Below, piece after piece: positions 6,535 through 39,597 of a stretch of DNA of 64,000 bases; position 1 is the stretch's first letter; each line of letters starts with the position of its first letter. The notes below the pieces were generated by a model. That model ran no database searches. It was not told the origin of the DNA and was given only the letters and a program-made list of their open reading frames with translations. Position numbers and translations under genes: made by a program. This DNA is from Undibacterium hunanense. Its GTDB lineage: Bacteria > Pseudomonadota > Gammaproteobacteria > Burkholderiales > Burkholderiaceae_D. The stretch covers positions 62,001-126,000 of the forward strand of contig NZ_JACOGF010000014.1 in the NCBI RefSeq assembly GCF_014284335.1. Direction: 5' to 3'.

Positions 6535-7083
6535 ATGAAAAATCAAAACACGGCACTCATCATTATCGACATGCAGCGTGGCATGGCTACACCTGAAGCT
6601 GGCCGTAGAAATAACCCCGGCGCTGAAGAAAATATATGCCAGTTGCTGCTAGCCTGGCGTGCGGCAGGCAGGCCAGTGGTATTTGTCAGGCACATGTCGC
6701 GCTCGCCAGCTTCCTTGTTCTGGCCAGGCCAGCCAGGCAATGAATTTCAAGAAAGTTTGCTGCCACTGACCAGTGAACATGTGGTCGAAAAAAATGTGAC
6801 GGATGCCTTCGTCAATACCGGTCTGGAACGCTGGCTGCATGTACGTGCAATCAAAGACCTGGTGATCGTCGGCGTCAGCACCAATAATTCAGTCGAGGCA
6901 ACAGCCCGCAGTGCTGGTAACCTGGGTTTTAACACCTCGGTCGTGGCCGATGCCTGTTTCAGTTTTGACAGGCTGGATTTGCATGGCAAGCCACAGACAG
7001 CAGAAGAAGTGCACATTAATGCACTCACCAATCTGCAAGGTGAATATGCCACCGTGCTGGATACTGCTGCGTTGCTGCACTGA
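6535..7083 (+). CDS. Isochorismatase-fold hydrolase with Ser in place of catalytic Cys
   Basis: A 182-residue Rossmann-like protein. ALIIIDMQRGM carries the catalytic Asp12 and HVVEKNVTDAF the catalytic Lys86. In GVSTNNSVEATARSAG, where cysteine hydrolases of this fold have TxxC, the nucleophile position is Ser119. Members lacking the Cys include true isochorismatase-type vinyl-ether hydrolases (EntB, PhzD), but here the rest of the motif (SVEATARSAG) is of the nicotinamidase/YcaC type. The function is therefore left open: an atypical hydrolase, or one with a different reaction. It is probably in the XRE-GNAT-phosphoesterase operon, 43 bases after the previous stop. Confidence 0.88.
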   Translation: MKNQNTALIIIDMQRGMATPEAGRRNNPGAEENICQLLLAWRAAGRPVVFVRHMSRSPASLFWPGQPGNEFQESLLPLTSEHVVEKNVTDAFVNTGLERWLHVRAIKDLVIVGVSTNNSVEATARSAGNLGFNTSVVADACFSFDRLDLHGKPQTAEEVHINALTNLQGEYATVLDTAALLH

Positions 7084-7144
7084 AAACGCAACAAACCGTA
7101 CAGCGCAACAAGCTTGAAAGAGCAAGAAATAATCTTGCTATCTT

Positions 7145-7467
7145 TAGAACTCATTTCATCAATAGGGGTGAGATGCGTTTGCCTCATAACGTGGGCTGGC
7201 AATGGTAAAACTATGGACGAGGCAGTCAATAGCGGGTCTATTGACAACGAGACGAATTGTCAACACCTTGCAGTCCAGCACGCGTTATGAGGCAAGCCCT
7301 ACGGGAGCTGGCCGCATTTATACTTCGCGGGCGCATTGCTGTGCAAGGTTGTTACACTGCGCTTGCCAAGGCACCAGCCTTGGCTACGCAGGTTACACAC
7401 CTTACGCCTTGCACTGCATCCCGAATCGCCTTGCTCGCACTCATCCCTATTTATGAAATGAGTTCTA
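7145..7467. mobile_element. 323-bp MITE-like palindromic element with TA-flanked inverted ends
   Basis: The ends are inverted repeats of about 27 bp: TAGAACTCATTTCAT on the left, its complement ATGAAATGAGTTCTA on the right, each continuing into an AATAGGG(G/A)TGAG block. Flanking TA dinucleotides fit a TA target duplication, as with IS630/mariner-type elements. Inside are nested hairpins: TTGCCTCATAACG (7179-7191) with its complement at 7283-7295; GTCAATAG/CTATTGAC (7225-7245); TTGACAA/TTGTCAA (7241-7263); and CCAAGGC-acca-GCCTTGG in the right half. No convincing coding sequence is present, so it would depend on a transposase elsewhere. A solo copy of the right end occurs at 39452-39482. Confidence 0.7.
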
Positions 7468-7596
7468 GTATTTGCAGCGGTAATTTCCATTAAAGATTAC
7501 CGCTGCCAGCATCTACCCCTGTAGGCAAAAATTTCATAAAATGCCCAGCATTGCCGCATGGGTTTGCGGATTACTTTTACTGTATGGGAAATCATC

Positions 7597-8388
7597 ATGG
7601 CCATGGATGTCATAGACTACGAAATTTTTGGCGACGATATGCAATTCGTCGAAGTCGAACTTGACCCTGGTGAAGCAGCCATAGGTGAAGCCGGTACCAT
7701 GTTTTACATGGAAGATGACATACAGATGGAAACCATCTTTGGCGATGGTTCCGCAGGACAGACCGGCATCTTCGGCAAATTGCTGGGTGCAGGCAAGCGC
7801 CTGGTGACCGGTGAATCCCTGTTCACTACGGTGTTTATGAATGCGGGCGCGGGTAAAAGAAAAGTCGCCTTCGGCGCTGCTTATCCGGGCAAAATCATTC
7901 CCATGCACCTGGATCAACTGGGCGGCACCCTGTTGTGCCAGAAAGACGCTTTCCTGTGCGCTGCCAAGGGCGTATCCCTGGGAATAGCCTTTCAAAAGCG
8001 GCTGGGCGCAGGTTTCTTTGGCGGTGAAGGCTTCATCCTGCAAAAACTCGAAGGTGACGGCCTGGCCTTTATCCATGCTGGCGGTGCCATCATAGAAAAG
8101 ACCTTGCATCCCGGTCAGACCTTGCGCGTGGATACCGGCTGTGTAGTGGCTTTTACCCAGGAAGTGGATTTTGACATCAAATTTGTTGGCGGCGTTAAAA
8201 CTGCCCTGTTCGGTGGTGAAGGCATATTCTTTGCCCATTTGCGTGGCCCCGGCAAGGTCTGGCTGCAATCTCTGCCTTTGGCGCGCCTGGCAAACCGCAT
8301 AGTGGGCGCATCGCAAATCGGCGGAGGCAAAGGTGGCGAACAAGGTTCGGTACTTGGTGGCTTGGGTAATCTTTTTGAAGATAAATAA
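7597..8388 (+). CDS. AIM24 / TIGR00266-family protein
   Basis: A 263-residue protein starting [20 protein letters not shown]. The start is chosen because GGGAA lies six bases upstream; a longer reading from 7558 lacks a ribosome-binding site. The pattern [18 protein letters not shown], a glycine-rich middle ([20 protein letters not shown]) and a C-terminal [20 protein letters not shown] identify the AIM24/TIGR00266 family, a beta-rich trimeric fold. Its bacterial function is not established; the name comes from a mitochondrial biogenesis protein. It sits between two MITE-like elements, and the stop at 8386-8388 lies two bases before the second one. Confidence 0.9.
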
Positions 8389-38197: not shown

Positions 38198-39454
38198 ATG
38201 CAAAAGCACTTAAATAATTCACAAAATGACAACGCGGATGAAGTGGTTGTCATTGGTGGCGGGCCTGCTGGCCTGATGGCTGCCGAGACGCTGGCCAGCC
38301 AGGGGCTGGCCGTCAGTCTGTACGATGCCATGCCATCGGTAGGGCGTAAGTTTTTGATGGCCGGCAAGGGGGGAATGAACCTGACCCATTCGGAAGATTC
38401 TGTCTCTTTCATGACACGGTATGCCGGGCGCGAAGTCGTCCTGTCGCCCATGATCAGCCAGTTTAACGCTAGTGCCCTGCGTAACTGGGCTGCCGGTTTG
38501 GGCATAGAGACTTATGTTGGTAGTTCGGGCCGGGTCTTCCCTGTTGACATGAAGGCCGCGCCGCTATTGCGTGCATGGCTGCATCGCTTGCGTACGCAGG
38601 GTGTGCGGTTTCATATGCGTCATCGCTGGCTGGGATGGCGCGATGCACAGACTCTGGTGTTCGCCACGCCAGAAGGCGAAGTCCAGCGGTCTGCGCGTGC
38701 CACCGTGCTGGCCCTCGGTGGTGGTAGTTGGGCCCGTCTCGGTTCGGATGGTGCCTGGGTTGAAACCCTGCGTCAGCGCGGTATTGCCGTTGCTGATTTG
38801 CTGGCGGCGAATTGTGGTTTCGATGTGGGCTGGACCACATTCTTCCAGGAGCGCTTTGCCGGTCATCCCTTACTGACGGTTGCCGCCAGGGTAAAGGACA
38901 GTGGCTTGCCCATGCGCAAAGGCCAGTTCGTGATGACTGCCAGTGGCGTCGAGGGCAGCCTGGTGTATGCCCTGTCTGCCGCGTTGCGTGATCAACTGCA
39001 TGCCAACGGGCAGGCGGTGCTGGAACTGGATTTGTTGCCGGATACACCTTTGCAAAAAGTCATCAGCGACATACAGCACCCGCGCGGTTCACGATCTTTA
39101 TCCAGCCATTTAAAAAGCAGGCTCAGGCTGGATGCATTAAAAATGAGCCTGTTGCATGAATGCCTGCAAAAGTGCGATTTTGAACAGCCGCAGCTATTGG
39201 CACAGGCGATCAAGTGCCTGCCGCTTAAACTGACCGCCGTGCGCCCCATTGATGAAGCCATCAGCAGCGCTGGCGGTGTCTGTTTTGAAGGACTGTCCGC
39301 CAGCCTGATGGCACAACAACATCCTGGCCTGTTTTTTGCTGGCGAAATGCTGGATTGGGAAGCACCAACCGGTGGTTATTTGCTAACAGCATGCATGGCC
39401 AGCGGCAAGCAGGCGGCGCAGGGCGTCATTGACTGGCTGGCAAGCAATAAATAG
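38198..39454 (+). CDS. NAD(P)/FAD-dependent flavoprotein (TIGR03862 / HI0933-like)
   Basis: A 418-residue protein. EVVVIGGGPAGLMAAETLAS is the FAD-binding GxGxxG motif with its acidic strand end (VSLYDAMPSVGRKFLMAGKGGMNLTHSE), a hallmark of the HI0933 family. VLALGGGSWARLGSDGAW and the C-terminal GLFFAGEMLDWEAPTGGYLL complete it (family pattern FAGE-D--GxxGGYN, here with GGYLL). It is a predicted oxidoreductase of unknown substrate. The ATG at 38198 follows no strong ribosome-binding site. The TAG stop is contributed by a repeat end inserted at 39452. Confidence 0.92.
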   Translation: MQKHLNNSQNDNADEVVVIGGGPAGLMAAETLASQGLAVSLYDAMPSVGRKFLMAGKGGMNLTHSEDSVSFMTRYAGREVVLSPMISQFNASALRNWAAGLGIETYVGSSGRVFPVDMKAAPLLRAWLHRLRTQGVRFHMRHRWLGWRDAQTLVFATPEGEVQRSARATVLALGGGSWARLGSDGAWVETLRQRGIAVADLLAANCGFDVGWTTFFQERFAGHPLLTVAARVKDSGLPMRKGQFVMTASGVEGSLVYALSAALRDQLHANGQAVLELDLLPDTPLQKVISDIQHPRGSRSLSSHLKSRLRLDALKMSLLHECLQKCDFEQPQLLAQAIKCLPLKLTAVRPIDEAISSAGGVCFEGLSASLMAQQHPGLFFAGEMLDWEAPTGGYLLTACMASGKQAAQGVIDWLASNK

Positions 39455-39482
39455 AACTCATCCCTATTAATGAAATGAGTTC
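39452..39482. repeat. Solo terminal repeat of the 7145-type MITE-like element
   Basis: The bases after TA (39452-39453) read GAACTCATCCCTATTAATG and on to GAAATGAGTTC (to 39482), nearly identical to the right end at 7441-7466. GAACTCAT/ATGAGTTC-type symmetry makes it a hairpin. The TAG of the flavoprotein gene is formed by its first three bases. Confidence 0.75.
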
Positions 39483-39597
39483 CAGTTTTGTATTGTCTTG
39501 TTGTAAGTCGGCAGAGCCCGGCAGAAGTCGGTACAATGGGCGTTTCTTGATATCAATTTTTGGACTACATGTCTTTGCACTTCTTTTTCGTTTTTGT

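Follow-up and report, generated by a model that had tools for sequence, protein, structure and literature searches.

In Undibacterium hunanense, a short repeat is flanked by an isochorismatase-domain gene (6535-7083) and an AIM24-family gene. What mobilises it, and what keeps its interior symmetrical? In the window (the whole stretch of 64,000 nucleotides that was analysed), this element occupies positions 7145-7467, where inverted ends of 28 nt, 93% complementary and bounded by TA, enclose several further inverted repeats. The initial annotation had rightly recognised these ends and repeats, and had proposed a non-autonomous element mobilised by an IS630/mariner transposase, with a transcript that could switch between two mutually exclusive hairpins. 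We describe here a MITE that is probably mobilised by an IS5-family transposase and whose copies are predicted to fold as one closed three-armed structure.

Layout of the element

7145-7467, + strand: whole element, a MITE of 323 bp; a long variant, most copies being about 270 bp
7145-7172, + strand: left terminal inverted repeat including the TA (7145-7146); its outer ~20 bp are common to the IS5-family partner
7173-7296, + strand: arm A, with an outer helix (GTTTGCCTCATAACG / CGTTATGAGGCAA), internal-loop motifs and a terminal hairpin
7226-7244, + strand: hairpin at the tip of arm A, TCAATAG-CGGGT-CTATTGA; found unaltered in 87 of 124 copies
7241-7263, + strand: alternative hairpin TTGACAA..TTGTCAA, overlapping the hairpin at 7226-7244; rare (5 of 124 copies), with a small insertion as its cause
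7297-7305, + strand: CCC-TAC-GGG mini-hairpin between arms A and B; same position in alignment A1 (below) and in related elements
7306-7439, + strand: arm B; in part of the wider family the R1 model of arm A (below) matches it from the opposite strand, as an inverted copy of one unit
7440-7467, - strand: right terminal inverted repeat with TA; pairs with 7145-7172
39452-39484, no strand: palindrome of two joined ends of the same MITE family; 33 bp, nearly perfect, without interior

The internal-loop motif of arm A is CAATGG in the window copy and CAAGG in most copies. R1, a covariance model of arm A that we built from 14 sequences and searched in whole genomes, matches window positions 7173-7298 with 72 bits (E 7e-17). 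The two hairpins TCAATAG/CTATTGA and TTGACAA/TTGTCAA do have TTGAC in common, as initially noted. At 39452 a related solo end had been reported; the end is indeed related, but it is not solo, since the nearly perfect palindrome joins two ends. The first TAG of this palindrome serves as stop codon of a HI0933-like gene (38198-39454), whose end therefore seems to have been set by the insertion. A second minimal two-end palindrome, deduced from two overlapping end matches, lies at C21:78058-78091. Directly after the element and before the AIM24 gene, a perfect 11-bp inverted repeat (GCAGCGGTAAT/ATTACCGCTGC, 7474-7506) is unrelated to the element and is possibly a terminator or regulatory hairpin.

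Copies in the genome and genus

A genome search retrieved 26 near-full copies (L001-L026, of which L005 is split by an inserted module) along with many partial matches, and the end pattern, allowing up to 2 mismatches, matched the genome 144 times compared with 7 times for a reversed control. These numbers indicate that the inverted-end element is not a product of chance. Across the genus Undibacterium, 15 out of 43 genomes, this one included, contain a match at E ≤ 0.001; three of the 15 (G008, G009, and G012) have one weak match apiece.

We examined the surroundings of 124 copies with a simple ORF caller. The copies are mostly intergenic, with a long neighbouring frame entering the element in some cases (e.g., L064, L097, L133, L142, and L147). 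Divergent genes flank 37 copies and convergent genes 31, with 8 contexts undetermined; among copies between co-directional genes, 25 are sense and 23 antisense, so no orientation bias was seen, and a host-strand or terminator role deduced from orientation was rejected. Frames of at least 90 aa, called on either strand without a formal coding test, cover part of 37 of the 124 copies. In L003-L006, L010, and others, minus-strand frames of similar extent run across the element, and annotation pipelines may therefore call spurious proteins there.

Some copies carry an extra double-hairpin module of ~75 bp (GTAAAGCAGGG..GCCTGCGTA..CCTGCAAGG), which sits in arm A or, in reverse orientation, in arm B (L005, L071, L075, L093, L105, L108, L111, L159, L160, L167, L204, L206, and L215); the MITE structure seems to grow by whole modules. 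The orthologous insertions L084 (genome G020) and L102 (G021), with flanks that are 98% identical, differ in length by 9 bp within the element. Blastn at E 1e-5 returned no match for five element queries against plasmids or for one element query against phages, so that spread by either route was rejected.

Target duplication at empty sites

For ten copies of G020, we joined the flanks with one TA kept and searched the joints in four related genomes. In five of the ten insertions (L082, L083, L089, L090, and L091), an unoccupied G021 sequence crosses the joint with exactly one TA, from which we conclude that TA is duplicated on insertion. Unoccupied counterparts of L085, L086, and L092 are present but different near the joint, the site of L081 is occupied in G025, and L088 gave no clear outcome. 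The multiple genomic copies and the single-TA empty sites bear out the earlier view of a non-autonomous mobile element, for which a lack of further copies or of TA duplication had been named as the refutation.

An IS5-family partner

A scan of named genomes for the end pattern gave at least 90 stretches, mostly from Undibacterium, Herbaspirillum, Herminiimonas, Collimonas, Noviherbaspirillum, Keguizhuia, and Burkholderiales MAGs, with eight records from other groups among the matches listed. One of these eight, titled as an Actinomycetes MAG, has the MITE ends 180 bp apart (L201:2750-2929), one of them with mismatches, around an interior that looks unrelated. Among 80 of the at least 90 stretches, four loci (L185, L193, L207, and L230) have their ends 856-859 bp apart. 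Two overlapping frames of L185 match PF13340 and PF01609 and reach 116.6 and 111.4 bits with NF033580 (the NCBIfam IS5 model transpos_IS5_3), above its cut-off of 110. The proteins of L193, L207, and L230 are 68-81% identical to those of L185, and the range becomes 68-100% when L251, L252, and two copies of G220 (a genome from another genus of the same family) are included. Autonomous partners with the same ends are thus L185, L193, L207, L230, L251, L252, and the elements of G220. Such IS5-family elements, 839-859 bp long, occur in Herbaspirillum, Noviherbaspirillum, Herminiimonas, Keguizhuia, and two Undibacterium genomes. We take the partner subgroup to be IS427-like. The MITE and these insertion sequences have identical ends (TAGAACTCATTTCATAAATAG), and the MITE has TA duplication; in contrast to the insertion sequences, it has no transposase, its interior is unrelated by eye, and its closing stem is longer than the shared end.

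Within the genus, transposase relatives were found at E ≤ 1e-8 in 10 of the 43 genomes; close ones (about 81-82%) occur only in G040 and G020, where they sit in 839- and 859-bp elements with the MITE's ends, and G042 has a fragment of the transposase. In the genome under study the cognate transposase was not detected at the thresholds used, in an assembly of 108 contigs that could miss one.

The link between MITE and insertion sequence is clearest in G220, where 12 IS copies of 859 bp were located. A lineage-specific end, TAGAACCCATTTCATAAATAG, stands on one side of 11 of the 12, the twelfth having altered ends, and the one G220 MITE copy that was read (L303) has TAGAACCCATTTCATAAATAG on both sides. 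Since this end co-varies between both, it ties the MITE to the insertion sequence. The G220 set, with its 12 located IS copies and at least 13 MITE matches, looks recently active. At L358-L361 MITE and IS copies lie close together, two of the IS copies nearly in tandem.

The search suggested for an IS630-type element with these termini thus led to another family: a TA target fits an IS630/Tc1-mariner MITE, but the partners with the same ends encode an IS5-type transposase. The switching transcript fares no better. The two hairpins overlap at TTGAC in the window copy, but the second one is present in only 5 of 124 copies (2 of the 26 in this genome, by pattern search), whereas the first is exact in 87. 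An IS630/mariner MITE with a transcript switching between two hairpins thus retains almost no probability, its TA duplication notwithstanding. What was found is a short element with inverted ends and many copies, mostly between genes, with target duplication at empty sites and an autonomous partner with the same ends, as is typical for a MITE.

A three-armed fold with covariation

Folding the copies, the check that had been suggested for the transcript, gave one closed three-armed structure: single copies have a stem formed by both ends, arm A, the CCC..GGG mini-hairpin, and arm B. RNAalifold on a gappy alignment of 124 rows missed the inner helices, so we wrote the structure (100 pairs) by hand from conserved motifs and tested it on A1, a MAFFT alignment of 24 chosen diverse Oxalobacteraceae copies. 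A1 leaves out L206 and L215 (too long), L239 (incomplete), and near-duplicates, and keeps rows L197 and L238, which are out of register in arm B.

In A1, 94.7% of 2358 cells are paired, a percentage that is favoured because the structure was drawn from the same sequences; the double changes are the stronger sign. Changes on both sides affect 47 of the 100 pairs, and double-change cells number 192, compared with 52.2 ± 6.6 in shuffles, none of 500 shuffles reaching any of the five observed values. Structures slid along A1 were 33-41% paired, with 21-33 double-change cells. The predicted fold energy is -145 to -210 kcal/mol in 24 chosen elements of the wider family (below), and the 14 copies that were folded on both strands gave similar energies for each.

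We scanned window positions 7000-7600 and 28 loci against Rfam, and no family reached its threshold over an element. The sole match over an element was isrG in L013, at 25.9 bits compared with a gathering score of 100; the flanks gave sub-threshold matches to mir-1000, snoZ185, and MIR5084, as well as a tRNA. A known Rfam structured RNA was therefore rejected as an identity for the element.

Relatives across Pseudomonadota

R1 found relatives far beyond the genus. At E ≤ 0.001 it hit 94 of 300 Burkholderiales genomes, representing 47 of 134 genera; at the stricter E ≤ 1e-6 it hit 64 of 369 genomes, in 53 of 272 genera, at the level of the class, and 35 of 398 at the level of the phylum, 20 of the latter from outside the class. 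The three genome sets overlap partly, the best 9-13 candidates were scored per genome, and the E-values are rough, coming from a short calibration. The relatives are mostly about 270 bp long and have the same layout with other ends.

The ends, the mini-hairpin, arm B, and the length all lie outside R1, and the flanking repeats provide a model-independent check. We used 47 of the 56 fetched R1 loci, without L301 and L302, which belong to the genus itself, and seven loci cut by contig ends; L303 and L304, within the 47, come from genomes of the same taxonomic family as the window. An inverted repeat (at least 14 of 16 letters) flanks 44 of the 47 loci compared with 3 of 188 displaced control windows, spanning 265-279 bp in 36 of the 44, and a CC-N-GG mini-hairpin follows arm A in 39 loci compared with 23 of 188 controls. 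The ends differ between lineages (e.g., TAGGGCCTGTTAACC, TTAGAGCCTGTTCACG, TAGGGCGTGTCATCA, CTAGTGCTCCTTCAA, and CTAGGGGAACACTGATTAG). In all 24 chosen wider-family elements that were folded, the closing stem and arm A are present, but L322 lacks the small hairpin, and in L330 both this hairpin and arm B are drawn differently. Among 38 arm A sequences from across the class (alignment A3), 84.3% of 1557 cells are paired, a level that is partly circular because a model of this same arm served to find them, and 427 cells are double changes compared with 144 ± 11 in shuffles. A second arm A-like match lies about 370 bp from the first element at L345:1972-2065.

Outside Oxalobacteraceae, a DDE_Tnp_1 search of 11 genomes gave no hit in five; G224, G193, G364, and G423 have hits, none with matching ends. 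Rough end matches were seen in G561, where each end has 3 mismatches in 16 and does not surpass the best of 200 shuffles, and in G088 (2 and 5 mismatches); PF13340 is present in 2 of 10 genomes. We infer that the ends of the other lineages belong to other IS5-type elements.

Elements of this kind could also have arisen by repeated capture of a host or REP-like palindromic unit, the arm, between IS5-type ends, so that the family would not be one lineage. One-arm (about 160-190 bp), two-arm, and extended forms all exist, and the ends vary by lineage with a conserved arm, as capture would predict. However, 44 of the 47 arm matches lie between inverted repeats, and the two-arm order with its mini-hairpin recurs in nearly every folded element, which points to one inherited design. 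We thus regard repeated capture as unlikely. The data describe a MITE family found across Pseudomonadota, apparently undescribed, which keeps its three-armed shape although most letters, even those of the ends, differ.

Inverted arms and strand signals

In 17 of 43 loci (out of the 56 fetched R1 loci), R1 also hits arm B, adjacent to arm A but on the opposite strand; once, in L322, the hit is on the same strand. In single copies, arm A and reversed arm B have a weak pairwise similarity that becomes clear only by the model, and the conserved unpaired motifs CAAGG and CAACG stand at matching places in the arms. The arms resemble a single unit in two inverted copies, so that one arm has the same form whichever strand is considered.

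With pairs drawn without G-U, we counted single mismatches in 33 elements as the ratio of G-U to A-C. Arm A has 17:3 and the closing stem 27:10, both leaning to the + strand, whereas arm B has 6:23 and leans to the - strand; these wobble-type mismatches are partly clustered at few positions. In Undibacterium copies alone the strand tests are mixed in sign, the closing stem giving 16:16 by genome-position. Because the wobble preference is opposite in the two arms, it would seem that each is read on a strand of its own, as would fit single-stranded DNA or a cruciform, or else transcripts from both sides.

The fold might hence act as RNA: the element would be transcribed from either side, independently of orientation because the arms are inverted, and the folded transcript or a processed arm would aid persistence, for example by stabilising, terminating, or binding a protein. 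The very stable predicted fold, the excess of G-U over A-C in arm A and in the wide-set closing stem, the conserved unpaired motifs, and the description of transcribed MITEs in the available text of PMC10969869, PMC2229807, and PMC5896051 agree with this. The opposite preference in arm B, the balanced closing stem of Undibacterium, the similar energies on both strands, the even orientation among genes, and the Rfam scan argue against it, and we consider an RNA role somewhat unlikely.

Where selection may act

Orthologous insertions offer a view of the element at rest. In four pairs (L084/L102, L087/L104, L081/L152, and L097/L099) we counted, in all, 14 broken pairs, 6 one-sided changes that are still paired, and a single double change. 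Two additional comparisons involving L157 gave 7 and 5 broken pairs, 2 and 5 one-sided changes, and no double change. These are few changes, counted without a computed neutral expectation. Since orthologous copies lose pairs while lineages keep them, the fold seems to be selected during propagation, and the decay argues, with small numbers, against a role at each insertion site and against palindrome correction in place.

Such correction would make this an ordinary MITE, its matched arms kept by a mutational process (template switching correcting imperfect palindromes) with no selection on the fold. Intermediate states are indeed few, and the two ends of one copy match beyond within-genome permutation (3179 vs 3138 ± 6 of 3472), a figure from which within-genome relatedness was not removed. 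Yet the resident orthologues gain broken rather than corrected pairs, although in small numbers, and the internal-loop motifs, mini-hairpin, and total length recur phylum-wide, which correction alone would not maintain. This explanation appears very unlikely to us.

The reading we prefer, and hold to be probable, is that the element is a TA-target MITE, mobilised in trans by an IS5-family transposase that reads its ends, with a fold selected via copying. We infer the mobilisation in trans, the importance of the fold for copying, and the action as DNA from the patterns described above. An IS5-family transposase supplied in trans would recognise the MITE ends, and the copies that fold correctly would be those that get copied, so that the fold would be selected. 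Folding would most likely take place while the element is in single-stranded form or extruded into a cruciform; the paired closing stem would unite both ends as one unit, and the inverted arms would offer one arm in the same form on either strand. We know of no need of IS5 transposases for single-stranded or folded DNA.

Comparison with known repeats

Systems of the REP/REPIN-RAYT type are by definition without target duplication, and bcr1 of the Bacillus cereus group is a mobile-looking repeat with a predicted structured transcript. Compared by description only, bcr1 has a host phylum different from that of the MITE. REP/REPIN units with RAYT transposases are palindromic and arranged in inverted pairs, as here (available text of PMC3733652 and PMC2817692); in contrast, our MITE is bounded by IS5-type ends and duplicates TA, and membership in that group was rejected because of the duplication.

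According to the accessible part of PMC2229807, RUP, Correia/NEMIS, and ERIC are, like the MITE, short and intergenic, with inverted ends, TA, and whole-element folding; RUP is attributed there to IS630-Spn1, and long stem-loops are described. The present family differs from RUP, Correia, and ERIC by a three-arm layout that extends across a phylum with exchanged ends. CIR of Caulobacter and Brucella joins two inverted-repeat arms through a linker and, as here, is conserved from one genus to another, but it resembles a MITE only partly and has a GANTC motif (same part of PMC2229807), whereas here inverted ends close the structure. Two others were compared by description only, from the available text of their reports. 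BRE, the Beta-proteobacterial repeat element, is likewise repeated in Betaproteobacteria and usually intergenic; it is 75-91 bp long and often tandem, and that text does not mention inverted ends (PMC3110155). QMITE1 of Coxiella burnetii (300-400 bp, 21-28-nt inverted ends, predicted -192.7 kcal/mol, 2-3 nt duplications) resembles the MITE in size, inverted ends, fold stability, and short duplications, and is reported to have no orthologues by BLASTn (PMC5896051). We found no description of the present family in our searches of the open-licence literature, including the accessible text of PMC10969869, PMC2229807, PMC4666352, PMC5896051, PMC3110155, and PMC2267715.

Implications

MITEs are commonly regarded as decayed transposons whose interiors are neutral. 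In the elements described here, the interior fold outlasts both sequence and ends across many Pseudomonadota families, and selection seems to act at the level of copying, not of the insertion site. More tentatively, since we hold it possible without favouring it, the elements may form a Pseudomonadota-wide superfamily of IS parasites, in which a portable three-armed fold, made of two inverted copies of a unit of ~105 nt, would be a cis-acting requirement for copying, with ends re-matched to the IS5-type transposase of each lineage; this would amount to structure-dependent mobilisation of a DDE DNA transposon. The family, large and absent from Rfam, provides a concrete and testable example of mobile DNA with a fitness that would depend on nucleic-acid structure, and a natural compensatory series for probing the substrate choice of IS5-type transposases.
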